From Treponema sp. (GTDB taxonomy: Bacteria; Spirochaetota; Spirochaetia; Treponematales; Breznakiellaceae): a stretch of DNA of 8,094 bases. Shown here piece after piece: positions 1 to 8,094 of this stretch; the stretch's first letter is position 1, and the number at the start of each line of letters is the position of its first letter. Both the position numbers and the translations under genes were made by a program. The notes under the pieces are model-generated. The model worked only from the letters and a program-made list of their open reading frames with translations. It did no database searches and was not told the DNA's origin. The DNA lies in contig JAITHH010000331.1 of the NCBI GenBank assembly GCA_031280065.1, positions 1-8,094 of the forward strand. The letters run 5' to 3'.

Positions 1-750
1 CAGGCTAAAGCCTTCGCGCATCTGTGCTAATAGGGGGTATTGCGAGCGCTACACCGTGCCGCATATTCGGGCTCAACGCCCTGCGGGCGCGATGTTGGGT
101 GTGCCCCGCTCAGGCTAAAACCTTCGCGCATCTGTGCTAATAGGGGGTATTACGAGCGCTACGGCGGGCCGCATACGCCGGGTCAACGCCCTGCGGGCGC
201 GGATGCTTGGCGCTCACTGCTCAGGCTAAAGCCTTCGCGCATCTGTGCTAATAGGGGGTATTGCGAGCGCTACGCCATGCCGCATACGCTGCCTCAACGC
301 CCTGGCGGGTGCTTTTGTTTGCCGCGCACCGCTCAGGCTAAAGCCTTCGCGCATCTGTGCTAATAGGGGGTATTGCGAGCGCTACGCCATGCCGCATACG
401 CTGCCTCAACGCCCTGCGGGCGCGGATGCTTGGCGTGCACTGCTCAGGCTAAAGCCTTCGCGCATGTGTGCTAATAGGGGGTATTGCGAGCGCTACGGCG
501 GGCCGCATACGCCGCCTCAACGCCCTGCGGGCGCGGATGCTTGCCGCGCACCGCTCAGGCTAAAGCCTTCGCGCATTTGTGCTAATAGGGGATATTGCGA
601 GCGCTACGGCGGGCCGCATACGCCGGGTCAACGCCCTGCGGGCGCGATGTTGGGTGTGCCCCGCTCAGGCTAAAGCCTTCGCGCATCTGTGCTAATAGGG
701 GGGATTGCGAGCGCTGCACCGGGCCGCATACTCTAGCCTAACGCCCTGAC
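1..750. repeat. Tandem array of seven ~111-bp units, left end open
   Basis: Seven head-to-tail units begin with CAGGCTAAAGCC at 1, 111 (here CAGGCTAAAACC), 222, 334, 445, 556 and 666, giving unit lengths of 110, 111, 112, 111, 111 and 110 bp. The seventh is diverged and decays by about 750. Each unit has a nearly invariant first half of about 52 bp, a short variable middle around a GCCGCATA core, and a third block containing the dyad CGCCC-TGC-GGGCG followed by a variable tail. The first half also carries the dyad AGGC-TAAA-GCCT, which unit 2 breaks. The window starts exactly at a unit boundary, so the array may continue leftwards. Open frames through the units have no ribosome-binding site, and the 110/112-bp units shift the frame, so the array is best read as non-coding. 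Function is unknown. It ends only about 20 bp before the promoter of the downstream operon. Confidence 0.95.
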
Positions 751-769: not shown

Positions 770-797
770 TTGACAGCCCGTTATTATGCACTATATT
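770..797 (+). promoter_or_regulatory. Sigma70-like promoter of the TPR operon
   Basis: A consensus -35 TTGACA at 770-775 and a -10 TATATT at 792-797 are separated by 16 bp. The expected transcription start, about 7 nt after the -10, falls near 803-806, at or inside the AAGGAGG ribosome-binding site at 803-809. The leader would therefore be only about 10-13 nt. The promoter follows the repeat array directly. Confidence 0.65.
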
Positions 798-815: not shown

Positions 816-1361
816 ATGGAAACATCAGCGTCATTAAACGATTCTGGTATCGCGCTTACCGAAGCCAACAGGCCCTACGAGGCAATCCCCTTGTTCCAAA
901 AAGCCCTGATCATGGATCCCGAAAACCCCCTGTTATGGATCAACTTAGGTATTGCCCAACAGCGGACCGGCGATTACGAAGAAGCGCTGGCGAGTTTTCA
1001 ACGGTCGGTGTGCATCGAAGACCGGCTGGCCGCGCCCTGGGCGTCAATGGGGCTTATCTATTACGAACAGGAACAGTTCGATCTGGCGGAAGAGTGCTAC
1101 CATTCGGCGCTGTACCGCGATGGGGACGCCCCTATGACCTGGAATAATCTGGGGGTACTCTACTTTGCCGAGGGCAACTACGAAGATGCCCGCCATTGTT
1201 TTGAAGAGGCGGTGAGCCTTGCGCCCCTGTACTACGAGGCGCTCTTCAACCTGCGGGACGCCTGTAGGGAACTGGAAGACTACCGGGCCGCGGCTGAATT
1301 TGAGCGGGTACTCTCCAGCATGGAGGCGGGCGCGTCAATCCCGCGGGGTATTGACCGGTGA
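816..1361 (+). CDS. Tetratricopeptide-repeat protein (5 TPRs)
   Basis: This 181-residue protein is almost wholly TPR. Repeats with 34-residue spacing begin near residues 4, 38, 72, 106 and 140, each with the expected small/aromatic pattern (W..LG, Y..A, A..P). The third and fourth contain WASMGLIYYE and WNNLGVLYFAEGNY. There is no signal peptide or membrane segment, so it should be a cytoplasmic scaffold that binds another protein; the partner is unknown. The start at 816 is supported by a strong ribosome-binding site and an upstream promoter. The last codons overlap the start of the YmdB-like gene by 4 nt (GTGA), which implies co-transcription and probable translational coupling. TPR folds are generic, so a specific role cannot be assigned. 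Confidence 0.93.
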   Translation: METSASLNDSGIALTEANRPYEAIPLFQKALIMDPENPLLWINLGIAQQRTGDYEEALASFQRSVCIEDRLAAPWASMGLIYYEQEQFDLAEECYHSALYRDGDAPMTWNNLGVLYFAEGNYEDARHCFEEAVSLAPLYYEALFNLRDACRELEDYRAAAEFERVLSSMEAGASIPRGIDR

Positions 1362-4113: not shown

Positions 4114-4128
4114 CGGACCTTCGGTCCG
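4114..4128. other. Short perfect hairpin after the SPFH gene
   Basis: CGGACC (4114-4119) pairs with GGTCCG (4123-4128) across loop TTC, 25 bp after the SPFH stop. No T run follows, so an intrinsic terminator is doubtful. The same 17 bases (4109-4125) are the exact complement of 4198-4214, so a longer-range fold competes with this hairpin. Confidence 0.5.
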
Positions 4129-4137
4129 GCGGATGAA

Positions 4138-4229
4138 ACCGCGGATTACACGGATAAAAAGGATGGCACAGATGAGTAGAAACAACATCAGTGTCGAACC
4201 GAAGGTCCGCAATCCGTGTCATCTGCGGT
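4138..4229. repeat. Inverted-repeat module A
   Basis: The left arm ACCGCGGATTACACGGAT (4138-4155) and right arm ATCCGTGTCATCTGCGGT (4212-4229) are complementary at 16 of 18 positions. The left half shows GGAT/AGAT motifs about every 9-10 bases (4142, 4152, 4161, 4170). The right half contains CGAACCGAAGG at 4195-4205. Confidence 0.85.
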
Positions 4230-4249
4230 AAAAAAACAGTAACCAAGGA

Positions 4250-4351
4250 ACCGCAGATTGCACTGATGAAAAAGATACCGCAGATGAAGAGAAACAAAAT
4301 CAGCGTCGAACCGAAGGTTCGCAATCTGTGTACATCCGTGCCATCTGCGGT
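4250..4351. repeat. Inverted-repeat module B
   Basis: The left arm ACCGCAGATTGCACTGATG (4250-4268) pairs with CATCCGTGCCATCTGCGGT (4333-4351) at 17 of 19 positions. The interior repeats that of module A, with GAGAAACAAAATCAG and CGTCGAACCGAAGG at about 4289-4316. A and B are therefore diverged direct copies of one ~95-bp foldback unit. A third, partial copy follows at 4364-4387. Confidence 0.85.
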
Positions 4352-4434
4352 TTAAATCCGTACCGAACCGAAGGGACGCAATCCGTGGACTTTGTTTATA
4401 AAACCTGATTTAATCATAGTTACCCTATTAAAGT

Positions 4435-4485
4435 AGCACTGATTGCGCCATATATGGCGAATGCTCGGCTGCATAAATCAGTGCT
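4435..4485. other. Three-way-junction foldback before the AraC-type gene
   Basis: A perfect 10-bp outer stem (AGCACTGATT 4435-4444 with AATCAGTGCT 4476-4485) encloses two inner dyads. These are the perfect 14-bp palindrome CGCCATATATGGCG (4446-4459) and ATGC-TCGGCT-GCAT (4461-4474). The fold ends 20 bp before the AraC-type start codon. It could be the end structure of the repeat element, an RNA leader fold or an operator; the sequence does not decide. Confidence 0.7.
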
Positions 4486-4505: not shown

Positions 4506-6746
4506 ATGGGTAAAAAAAGCTGGCTGGGAAAATATTTTTGGTCCTACCTCCTCATCGGCGTCTTCCCCCTGCTCCTGGGCTTTGTGTTTTACTATACGAA
4601 CATCACCACCGTGGAGCGGGAGGTGGCGAACAACAATTTCGCCGCCCTGGAAAAGGCCGGGAAGGAACTGGATTACATGGCCGGGGAGATGAAAAACATC
4701 GCCTACCATCTTTCGGGGTACCTCACCGAAACCTTCCCCGGGTCCTTTGATGAGGGCGCCGCCCCCAAGGACCTGTTGTCCCAGCGGCTCAAGACCTACG
4801 AGGAGGCGCTTAAATTCCCGGTGAGCATCGTCCTTTTTTTCCGGGGACGGACCGAGCTGTACACTTCCCAGGGGATCATGGCCTACCGGGATTTCGAGCG
4901 GGCCGTGGAAAGGGAAGGGGACCTTACCATGTCGGGCTTTTACACCGCCATCAACGGCCTGCGGAACAACGCCTCCTACCGGCTTGCCCACAACTTTTTC
5001 TCCGGCCGGAAGGACGCCACGGGGGTGGTGTATTTCTACCCCCTGCCTTACCTGGACATGATTCCCCGGGCGACCCTCTGTTTTATCTTCCAGAGCGTCA
5101 GCATCAGCGGGGTCCTGGAAAATTATCTGGGGGAAAACGCGAGGACGGTTTATTGTTTCAACGAAATGCTCAAGCTCTTGTACGCCGGGGGGTCCCCGAA
5201 TTTGCCCGAAAGTTTTACCAAGCCCCTGGCGGGAATCAAAGGGGTGGGGGTCCAGAAACGGAGGATAAACGGCGGACGCTACGTGGTCATGCGGTCCCTG
5301 TCGGAAAATACCGGCGTGAGCCTGGTTTCGGTTACGGAGGAGGGGAAATTTTTCTCCCGGATCCGGGATACAAAACTGGTCCTCCTGGGATCTATGGTGC
5401 TGCTGGAACTGATTATCCTCATCCTCGCGGTGGTGATGACCCGGCGGAATTACAAGCCCATCAGCAGCCTGTTAAATAATTTCGGGGGCTCCGGGTGGAA
5501 GCATGAAAGCCAGGGGGATAATGAATTCGATTTTATCATGGGGAAGATGAATACCATTGAAGAAGAGAACCAGGAGCTGGCCCATACCCTGGACCGGCAG
5601 CGGCCCATGGTCGCCTGGTCCTGCATCAGGACGCTCCTCATGGGGGATTACGGCGGCACGGAGGAGATGAACTACTTTCTCAAATGCGCCGCCATCAATT
5701 TTCCCTACCCCTGGTTTTTCGTCCTCATCGCCGCTCCGGTTTACGAAGAGGGCGCGGACCTGAACCGCCGGATATCCCTCCTCCTTTCCGCCCTGGACCG
5801 GCACGATTTTCCCCAATGCCGCCTCTACGGCATCGAGCTTATTCTGGAGCATCAGGCCGCAGTGATCGTCAATGCTGGGGAAACCCGGCGGGAGGGATCG
5901 GATATCCGCAGCGCCGCCGCCGCTTTGCTGACGGACTACCTCGGCGGACAGTACGGCATAAAAATAAAAATCGGCGCCGGGCGGCTCTACGACCGTCCCG
6001 AGGCGGTCAAGGCCTCCTTTCTGGAAGCCAATGCGGTGATGACCGACTACCTCCTGGGGCCCCGGAACGTCATGCTCTTTGAAGAGGCCGCGAGCCTTGG
6101 GAACGAAGGCTGCCGCTATCCGGTGATCGAGCAGTCCCTGTACATCCAGAGCATCAAGCAGGCGAACACCGAAGGCGCCCTCAAGGCGGTGGACGCCATG
6201 GCCGCCAAGGCCGGGGAGGCCGGTTCCATCCCCGTTACCCAGTGCCTGTGCTTCGACATCATCAATACCATGATCCGGGCGGCGAACCAGCTCAACGGCG
6301 AGATTCCCCTCAAGGACCTCAAGGCCCTGACCGGCTTTACTGATCTGGAACAGTTCCGGCTCAAGGTCCGGGAGATAACCGGGGAAATTTGCCGCAGATC
6401 CGGGGAGGCGCGGAAAGAAAAGGACAGCCGCCTCAAGGCCCGGATCATCAGCTATGTCCACGAACAGTTTTGGGCCCCGCAGTTCAGCCTGCAGGAGGTG
6501 GCGGATCATTTCGACATTTCCCCCACCTATCTGAGCCGGTTTTTCAAGCAGGAGACGGGCTATAATTTTATCGAATACATTTCCATGCTCAGGATGGATA
6601 AGGCGAAGGAACTCCTCACCGGCACCGGGAAGCAGATCAAAGAAATCGTCCGCGACGTGGGCTACATGGACACCGCCAGTTTCCTCCGCAAATTCCGGGC
6701 CCTGGAGGGGATAACCCCCGGCCAGTACCGGGAACGGATGAAGTAG
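4506..6746 (+). CDS. Membrane-anchored AraC-family transcriptional regulator
   Basis: This 746-residue protein has a first membrane helix at about 11-31, a long extracytoplasmic sensor region (about 32-288, probably Cache-like), a second helix at about 290-311 and a cytoplasmic linker with EEENQELAHTLDRQ. A middle domain (about 365-530) has a sequence pattern resembling the degenerate GGDEF-like module of YesN-type regulators. A C-terminal AraC/XylS double helix-turn-helix (about 641-746) carries FSLQEVADHFDISPTYLSRFFKQ and VGYMDTASFLRKF...GITPGQY. This is the architecture of Paenibacillus- and Treponema-type regulators that usually control carbohydrate uptake or breakdown genes. ATG 4506 is chosen: it gives a normal MGKKSW anchor start after a G-rich stretch (4491-4502). 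In-frame TTG 4443 and ATG 4461 lie within the foldback. No clear promoter was found. The ligand is unknown; the convergent sulfatase is the only contextual hint. Confidence 0.92.
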   Translation: MGKKSWLGKYFWSYLLIGVFPLLLGFVFYYTNITTVEREVANNNFAALEKAGKELDYMAGEMKNIAYHLSGYLTETFPGSFDEGAAPKDLLSQRLKTYEEALKFPVSIVLFFRGRTELYTSQGIMAYRDFERAVEREGDLTMSGFYTAINGLRNNASYRLAHNFFSGRKDATGVVYFYPLPYLDMIPRATLCFIFQSVSISGVLENYLGENARTVYCFNEMLKLLYAGGSPNLPESFTKPLAGIKGVGVQKRRINGGRYVVMRSLSENTGVSLVSVTEEGKFFSRIRDTKLVLLGSMVLLELIILILAVVMTRRNYKPISSLLNNFGGSGWKHESQGDNEFDFIMGKMNTIEEENQELAHTLDRQRPMVAWSCIRTLLMGDYGGTEEMNYFLKCAAINFPYPWFFVLIAAPVYEEGADLNRRISLLLSALDRHDFPQCRLYGIELILEHQAAVIVNAGETRREGSDIRSAAAALLTDYLGGQYGIKIKIGAGRLYDRPEAVKASFLEANAVMTDYLLGPRNVMLFEEAASLGNEGCRYPVIEQSLYIQSIKQANTEGALKAVDAMAAKAGEAGSIPVTQCLCFDIINTMIRAANQLNGEIPLKDLKALTGFTDLEQFRLKVREITGEICRRSGEARKEKDSRLKARIISYVHEQFWAPQFSLQEVADHFDISPTYLSRFFKQETGYNFIEYISMLRMDKAKELLTGTGKQIKEIVRDVGYMDTASFLRKFRALEGITPGQYRERMK

Positions 6747-6768: not shown

Positions 6769-8094
6769 CTAGATTTTTTTCTTCCTCACCGCCTCTTCCA
6801 TGGGGAGTCCCGTGTCGTAATCCAACTGACGGGGTTCGTACTCCTCGTTTTCCCGCTGCCGGGTATAGCCGTCGTTTTCCCAGACCGGCTGTTTGTCCTT
6901 CCGCCAGGGCCGGGCCGTCCACTGATAGCCCCGGTAGATGTCCCGGGTACGGTTCATGTTTTCCAGCAGCGCATCGTGGAGTTTGTTCCGGGCCGCGGCG
7001 GAGTCCTCGCAGTCGATCCGGTTGACCATCTCGTGGGGGTCTTTTTCCAGGTCGTAGAATTCATCCCGGTCCAGAAGGTTAATCACCAGCTTATACCGTT
7101 GGCTGACCGCGGCCCGCATCATTTGAAGGCCGCCGAACCCGTCATGATCCACTTCGTAGCGGGTAAACTCGATGAACACCTCTTCGTTAATGAGCTTCCG
7201 GGTATCGTAAATCTGGGGCAGCATACTCTTTCCCTCAAGGAGTTTGGGGAGGGGGAGGCCCAGGTAATCCATGACCGTGGGAACCAGATCGATATGGGAA
7301 GCCGGGGCATCCACAACTTTGCCCTGTTCTCCCCCCCGGATAATGAGGGGGATATTCGCCACTTCTTTGTACGCCGCGGCGTTCTTGCTTTCCAGTTTAT
7401 GGGCGCCCAGCATATCCCCGTGATCGGAGGTGAAGATCACCAGGGCATCGGGGGCGACTTCGTTCACCCGGCTAATCACCCGGCCTATTTCGGCGTCCAC
7501 AAAACTGTTGCACCCCAGACGCAGGGCCAAGGACCGGGAAGGCCGGTTTATTTCTTCCGCCCCCCGGTGGAGCTTTTCCCCCGCCCAGAGCCGCTGCAAG
7601 AGAGGCTTGTCCGCAAGATCGTCGGAGAAGACCGGACTGTCGTCGAATTTGAAACCCTCGTACATGGTATTGTAGGGGGCGGGGCAGAGGAAGGGACCGT
7701 GGGGTTCGTCGTAGGAGACCGCCAGAAAAAAGGAGTTCTCCCTGTTTTCCTCAAGGAAGTCCAGGGCCCGGCTGGAACAGCGGTGGGCGTAGGTGAACTC
7801 CGCGCACATCCAGGGTTCATAGGCGCTTTCCGGCCGCCGGGATTTACGGCGTTCACCGGGATTGAGTTCTTCCAGGTAGGTCCGCATATCGTACCAGTAC
7901 TTTTTGTCCCAGCCTTCGGGGCAGCGGCCGGTGCCGAAATAATCCCCCCCGTCCAGATGCCACTTCCCGATATAGCCGCAGCGGATTCCCTGACCGGCCA
8001 GGCGCTGGCCGATGGTTTTTACATTGTCCCCCAGGGCGATGGAATTGGCGGTCATGCCGTTGGAATGGGGAAACAGGCCGGTAAACAGGGCCGA
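6769..8094 (-). CDS. Sulfatase, 3' part (N-terminus beyond window)
   Basis: The reading frame stays open to the right edge, so this is the C-terminal part, 441 visible residues, of a sulfatase (alkaline phosphatase superfamily, arylsulfatase-like). The first visible residues SALFTGLFPHSNGM immediately follow where the family signature C/S-x-P-x-R lies, so the formylglycine residue is only a few codons outside. Visible motifs are GYIGKWHLDG (40-49), DEPHGPF (129-135), and the metal-binding SDHGDMLGAHKLESK (223-237), which contains the conserved Asp-His pair. The C-terminal half has FYDLEKDPHEMVNRI, typical of this family. The protein would hydrolyse a sulfate ester; the substrate could be a sulfated glycan, choline-O-sulfate or an aryl sulfate. 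A signal peptide cannot be assessed. It converges on the AraC-type gene with only 22 bp between stops and ends in a basic RKKKI tail. Confidence 0.93.
   Translation of the reverse strand, partial: SALFTGLFPHSNGMTANSIALGDNVKTIGQRLAGQGIRCGYIGKWHLDGGDYFGTGRCPEGWDKKYWYDMRTYLEELNPGERRKSRRPESAYEPWMCAEFTYAHRCSSRALDFLEENRENSFFLAVSYDEPHGPFLCPAPYNTMYEGFKFDDSPVFSDDLADKPLLQRLWAGEKLHRGAEEINRPSRSLALRLGCNSFVDAEIGRVISRVNEVAPDALVIFTSDHGDMLGAHKLESKNAAAYKEVANIPLIIRGGEQGKVVDAPASHIDLVPTVMDYLGLPLPKLLEGKSMLPQIYDTRKLINEEVFIEFTRYEVDHDGFGGLQMMRAAVSQRYKLVINLLDRDEFYDLEKDPHEMVNRIDCEDSAAARNKLHDALLENMNRTRDIYRGYQWTARPWRKDKQPVWENDGYTRQRENEEYEPRQLDYDTGLPMEEAVRKKKI

Follow-up and report, generated by a model that had tools for sequence, protein, structure and literature searches.

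The left end of the 8,094-nucleotide Treponema stretch analysed here (the window) is occupied by a tandem repeat that stops just short of the putative promoter of an operon encoding a TPR protein, and the arrangement raises the question of whether the repeat serves that operon or is an entity in its own right. TRF reported a single array at positions 1-748 (period 111, 6.7 copies, 88% matches, score 1107), and the repeat starts at 1, 111, 222, 334, 445, 556 and 666, with spacings of 110, 111, 112, 111, 111 and 110, resolve it into six full units and a partial seventh of period 110-112 bp, the last of which departs from the repeat pattern after about position 725. Both analyses confirm the seven-unit array of about 111 bp proposed in the first-pass annotation, and its end, placed there some 20 bp from the TTGACA of the operon, was measured at 21 bp. 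The window also starts inside the array, as had been claimed, and seven units is therefore a minimum. A covariance model of the unit, described below, matches the window at all seven units, including units 1 and 7, which lay outside its training set. The features are as follows.

1..748, plus strand: tandem array of six full units and a partial seventh, cut by the left edge of the window (TRF, unit starts, model matches).
1..98, plus strand: unit 1, 5' end cut (model R1, E 3.8e-7; outside the training set).
99..212, plus strand: unit 2, 16 of 20 consensus pairs kept (model E 5.1e-15; in the training set).
210..324, plus strand: unit 3, 16 of 20 pairs kept, terminal GGCG-type bases common to both neighbours (model 214-321, E 8.4e-11; in the training set).
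322..435, plus strand: unit 4, 18 of 20 pairs kept (model E 3.8e-20; in the training set).
433..546, plus strand: unit 5, 18 of 20 pairs kept (model 436-543, E 3.8e-11; in the training set).
544..656, plus strand: unit 6, 17 of 20 pairs kept (model E 3.1e-18; in the training set).
658..712, plus strand: unit 7, domain A (defined below) recognised and the rest degenerate (model positions 5-60 of 114, E 1.1e-7; outside the training set).
TTGACA at 770-775 and TATATT at 792-797, plus strand: putative promoter of the TPR operon, read from the sequence and not part of the element.
816..1361, plus strand: TPR protein gene downstream of the array (Pfam TPR; matches in 195 of 195 family genomes).

Two dyads had been described as recurring unit by unit, and this holds for most units only: AGGC-TAAA-GCCT is intact in six of the seven, unit 2 reading AGGCTAAAACCT, and exact CGCCC-TGC-GGGCG is present in five, with a variant in unit 3 and none in unit 7. 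Units 1-6 form a mosaic: identity is 92-100% over the first 60 bases and 73-92% over the remainder, and variants are common to non-adjacent units, which is what exchange within the array would predict. The sequence differences among the units also speak against a misassembly, which the first-pass annotation had named as one outcome that would undo the array, and leave it as a lesser possibility. The suggestion that the locus varies in copy number is plausible, for in a comparison across genomes the copies differ in number and arrangement from place to place and from genome to genome. Two open frames of 107 and 142 aa cross the array, the former with no Pfam match and the latter with an EGF match below threshold only, and we take both for a side effect of the repeat period, which is nearly a multiple of three. 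Elsewhere in the window, a second repeat-rich intergenic stretch at 4119-4440 contains GCGGATTACACGGAT / CATCTGCGGT motifs and two copies of GTCGAACCGAAGGTYCGCAATC, by eye unlike the 111-bp unit. A large AraC-type regulator gene at 4506-6746 adjoins a sulfatase gene (Pfam Sulfatase, SGSH_C) at 6769-8094, which is cut by the right edge.

The distribution of the unit was followed in genome collections. In the species-genome collection its pattern matched one contig, JAITHL010000027.1, from a Treponema sp. metagenome-assembled genome (G001) that carries two single copies. BLAST found related pieces in 36 of the 195 genomes of the family of G001, and a 22-base pattern with at most 2 mismatches occurred in 33 of the 195 and, when reversed, in none; in genome G170 there were 61 pattern matches at up to 3 mismatches vs 1 for the reversed control. 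The covariance model matched 101 of the 195 genomes of this family, that of the nearest relative, at E 0.001. In a draw of 392 genomes from the whole phylum, some of them family members, it matched 5, all from the family of G001; since at most 19 candidates per genome were scored in the family search and at most 9 in the phylum search, the latter is the less sensitive and copy numbers are lower bounds. No Rfam match at gathering score was obtained for the window, and at 8 loci with copies Rfam returned tRNA, tmRNA and sub-threshold matches only, none to a family of the copies themselves. Window positions 330-735 were unmatched in plasmid records, one G170 copy and one window unit were unmatched in phage records, and three patterns gave 0, 2 and 0 matches in viral contigs. 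In the literature searched, mainly openly readable papers, we found no description of this repeat, and Treponema is not mentioned in PMC2267715. The unit is one member of a dispersed family of structured elements, about 114 nt long and apparently mobile. Copies elsewhere are scattered with no fixed position, an outcome that the first-pass annotation had listed as refuting, and this speaks against the phased operator considered below.

The element folds into two adjoining hairpin domains. Domain A consists of P1 (GGCGC..GCGCC) around P2 (AGGC-TAAA-GCCT), and domain B of P3 (CGCC..GGCG) around P4, a stem whose letters change freely. Covariation was analysed in 46 copies aligned by sequence only. 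From a starting pool of 156 non-identical pattern copies, filters that required an identifiable 3' end (or a variant form of the middle) and mutual similarity below 85% left 41 and 18, of which 32 and 9 were chosen by eye, and five window units were added. RNAalifold alone gave the P1 core, P2, P4 and one doubtful pair and did not recover P3; P3 and a longer P1 were added to the consensus structure by hand. Standard pairs fill 91.8% of cells vs 80.4% in shuffles, which ignore the kinship of copies, and changes on both sides are seen at 14 of 20 pairs vs 7.4. The covariation score is 0.315, compared with 0.123 in shuffles and at most 0.089 when partners are slid by one to three columns. The 3' end filter constrains one side of P3, so the cleanest evidence comes from P4, which played no role in the choice of copies: it is 96.1% paired, with double changes at four of five pairs. 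P1 is the weakest helix, with 84.7% of cells paired and two inner pairs failing in 20 and 16 of the 46 copies. Single copies were no more stable in folding than their shuffles, with z from -1.70 to +0.59 over 8 folds that drew on six copies, three of these from the window. The hairpin part of the multi-hairpin RNA that had been suggested for the array is thereby upheld, with compensatory changes in copies from other genomes.

In order to see where the copies sit, we used a context set of 106 distinct copies, counting each place once and heavy in G170. Of the 106, 25 overlap an ORF of at least 100 aa by more than 30 nt, many of them only at the end of the ORF; among 2120 places taken at random in these loci, 1618 (76%) do so. 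The copies are therefore mostly intergenic, often at gene 3' ends. Some genes take their stop codon from a copy and end inside the element, among them a peptide chain release factor gene (G165, L196) and an HSP90-type gene beside a G001 copy. Stops close all three reverse-strand frames in 87% of 114 copies, compared with 63% in shuffles (highest 73%), and all three forward-strand frames in 37%, compared with 23% (highest 33%). Over the first 60 nt of the reverse strand 2.07 frames are closed vs 1.93 (highest 2.05), which is marginal; built-in stops are a modest effect. The element ends are GGCG-type on both sides and not fixed to the base, and no target motif was found beyond a C-rich edge. 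Flanking stems of at least 6 bp accompany 23.7% of 97 copies vs a shuffle mean of 13.5% (highest 32%), and general insertion into palindromes is not established. Single copies in G088 do lie inside longer palindromes.

Several loci have peculiarities of their own. At L107:135-478 (G170) and L144:1172-1514 (G173) copies end right before a tmRNA gene or overlap its first base. L094 (G170) holds, on the minus strand, three tRNA-Ser genes and one tRNA-Arg gene together with a second repeat containing pieces like tRNA 3' ends; three element copies are nested in this repeat, one copy of which is free of the element. Another short repeat, ATGAGTAATCACG-CACGG, lies beside the second copy of G001 and at several places in L003 (G001), and in L214-L218 (G178) copies are set into a short tandem repeat of type AACTAAGCCTGTTGAGGGTCCTC. 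The contig of L332 encodes microvirus-type major head and replication genes, and at its end a frame resembling the start of a pseudouridine synthase runs into a diverged copy.

Copies in frame were found inside three genes, encoding Lon (G175, L211), a DEAH-box helicase (G152, L152) and an ADP-ribosylglycohydrolase-like product on a viral contig with Mu-like transposition genes (L331). The model matches 1 of 13 lon loci and 1 of 16 helicase loci. The insertion spots in these two genes are variable linkers, and several relatives have a short linker and others different inserts without the element. A helicase relative that is 94-95% identical in two aligned parts reads GACGCGCC at the spot, where GCGC is common with the element ends; this hints at a site preference, short of proving one. 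At L331:12495-13709 the phage copy sits between two near-repeats of a coding stretch, EIDIDELEY/EIDIDELQY. All three copies are read on the reverse strand and entered in the frame GAT GAA. Ordinary copies continue with TAA after GAT GAA; in its place the helicase and phage copies have AAA, and the Lon copy also differs at this position and has domain A read in another frame. A peptide search across the 195 genomes returned 25 matches, spread over 18 genomes, of which a single one falls in a long open frame, and it is not exhaustive since it missed the Lon copy. Read-through of the element within genes is rare, with three genes found.

The main rival reading is an RNA function, in which the unit would be a multi-copy structured RNA, either a 3'-UTR element or a small-RNA family, kept by the host for, for example, termination or transcript stability. 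The covarying stems, the intergenic copies near gene 3' ends and the adjacency of some copies to tmRNA or tRNA genes would all fit such a role. So would the orientation of the downstream gene. Among the 67 of 106 copies that have a neighbour on each side and overlap no ORF, this gene runs opposite to the element in 47 cases and in the same direction in 20 (p 0.0013), a bias that is not what pure drift predicts. However, upstream genes are evenly oriented (34 to 33), and the copies have no common neighbours, the 149 flanking ORFs giving 192 Pfam families of which none occurs in more than 3. A terminator role was rejected on the finding of a T-rich tail at only 7 of 110 P4 hairpins, and a known RNA family on that of no Rfam match. 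Folding energy is unexceptional, and the in-gene copies are read as protein. On balance, we consider an RNA kept for host function unlikely.

Movement of the unit as a REP-like element by a Y1 (RAYT-type) transposase is highly improbable. The element resembles REPs in being palindromic, albeit imperfectly, dispersed and extragenic, and Y1 genes are present in 119 of the 195 family genomes, but REPs are described as 20-40 bp long with a GTAG or CGTC tag in the part of PMC3733652 consulted, whereas the present element has about 114 nt and two domains. The linked or co-occurring transposase of REP/RAYT systems is also not seen here: the element is near none of 44 Y1 loci, and Y1 genes are rarer in genomes with it (54 of 101 vs 65 of 94; odds ratio 0.51, p 0.028), although these genomes are drafts and the absence of a Y1 gene is accordingly weak evidence. 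A MITE would have its ends in common with an autonomous transposon; no autonomous form was found when Y1 loci were searched for flanking copies.

The first-pass annotation had also raised in-phase protein binding, by which the array would act as an operator controlling the TPR operon, and its regular spacing and its end 21 bp before TTGACA are the features that favour it. We compared the best 30 TPR loci, with orthologues of 75-83% identity and, in 29 of the 30, at least 600 nt upstream. Comparable -10-like stretches were seen by eye upstream of the orthologues, but the element was found at none of the 30 loci, which makes a conserved operator unlikely; as far as the TPR loci show, the window array is lineage-specific. 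The unit is, moreover, scattered in other places, and with a DNA helical repeat of 10.5 bp per turn, 111 bp is a non-integer number of turns. An operator role can hardly be maintained on these data. Integron attC sites can be practically dismissed, despite a similar length range, imperfect palindromes, a fold kept while the sequence changes and one-strand clusters in G170. The R boxes are absent from the element: among 114 copies, none has the R-box-like RYYYAAC in the 20 nt next to its 5' end and 2 have GTTRRRY in the 20 nt next to the 3' end (2 and 0 on the reverse strand). A published analysis (PMC3607928) reports no integrons in T. primitia or T. azotonutricium.

In light of these comparisons, the unit is probably a small (about 114 nt) non-autonomous dispersed mobile element of the BOX or Rickettsia-palindromic-element kind that has been tandemly amplified in the window. 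Like BOX of Streptococcus pneumoniae, as described in the part of PMC3049150 consulted, it is dispersed, structured and intergenic, with modules variable in number: 11 places in G170 carry domain A twice, spaced 58-60 nt apart, and some copies there are trailed by additional pieces of domain B, as judged by eye. BOX differs in belonging to another phylum and in having boxA-boxB-boxC in place of the two modules A and B, and is reported by the same source to have terminal inverted repeats and target duplications. We saw no target-site duplication in near-identical copies and at one gene site, where relatives are too diverged to place the ends at base level. Rickettsia palindromic elements share with it a length of about 100-150 bp, a palindromic structure and an in-frame presence in unrelated genes, here three, to which they add a peptide (PMC10969869, in the part seen). 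According to that part, nearly half of the R. conorii elements lie within ORFs, whereas coding copies are rare here and the 25 of 106 ORF overlaps do not amount to a large coding share. Both systems were compared by description, and with the coding share different we file the element under neither.

The copies occur in many unrelated places, mostly between genes, and for lon and the helicase the other loci examined lack one. The element may be moved in trans as a folded DNA strand, with selection for folding maintaining its stems; a preference for sites resembling its own GGCG/GCGC ends is a weaker possibility. Neither a mobilising enzyme nor an autonomous parent was found at the Y1 loci searched for flanking copies or among the 25 commonest Pfam families of the 149 flanking ORFs, which include no transposase. 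The window array would have grown from one inserted copy by local tandem duplication and exchange, possibly via the terminal GGCG bases common to neighbouring units, and its place beside the TPR promoter would be incidental. Whole copies stand head to tail in eight other genomes (G072, G073, G096, G099, G170, G174, G176 and G178), in runs of at most 3 copies among those inspected, which makes the window array the longest seen; many copies lie near contig ends, so arrays may be under-counted.

Taken together, the data allow a wider and more tentative proposal, namely that this is a class of structured mobile DNA restricted to spirochetes, with two hairpin domains that serve as modules and are copied independently of each other. 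It may be suited to existence both next to genes and within them: its reverse strand would tend to close genes that run into it, and derived copies without that stop would add a peptide of about 38 residues. An enzyme that reads folded single-stranded DNA would move it in trans. Such a system would resemble the Rickettsia palindromic elements, but with a modular build and in a lineage other than the Rickettsiales. The covariance model makes annotation of the element possible, and arrays such as that in the window may cause broken short-read assemblies. If the mobile-element reading is right, repeats that are found neither in Rfam nor in the papers searched would leave their mark on the DNA between genes, on gene ends and occasionally on proteins, and would do so in about half of the genomes searched from a spirochete family to which most termite-gut symbionts probably belong. 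The way in which short palindromic elements that bring no transposase of their own spread and settle in frame within genes could then be studied in a second lineage.
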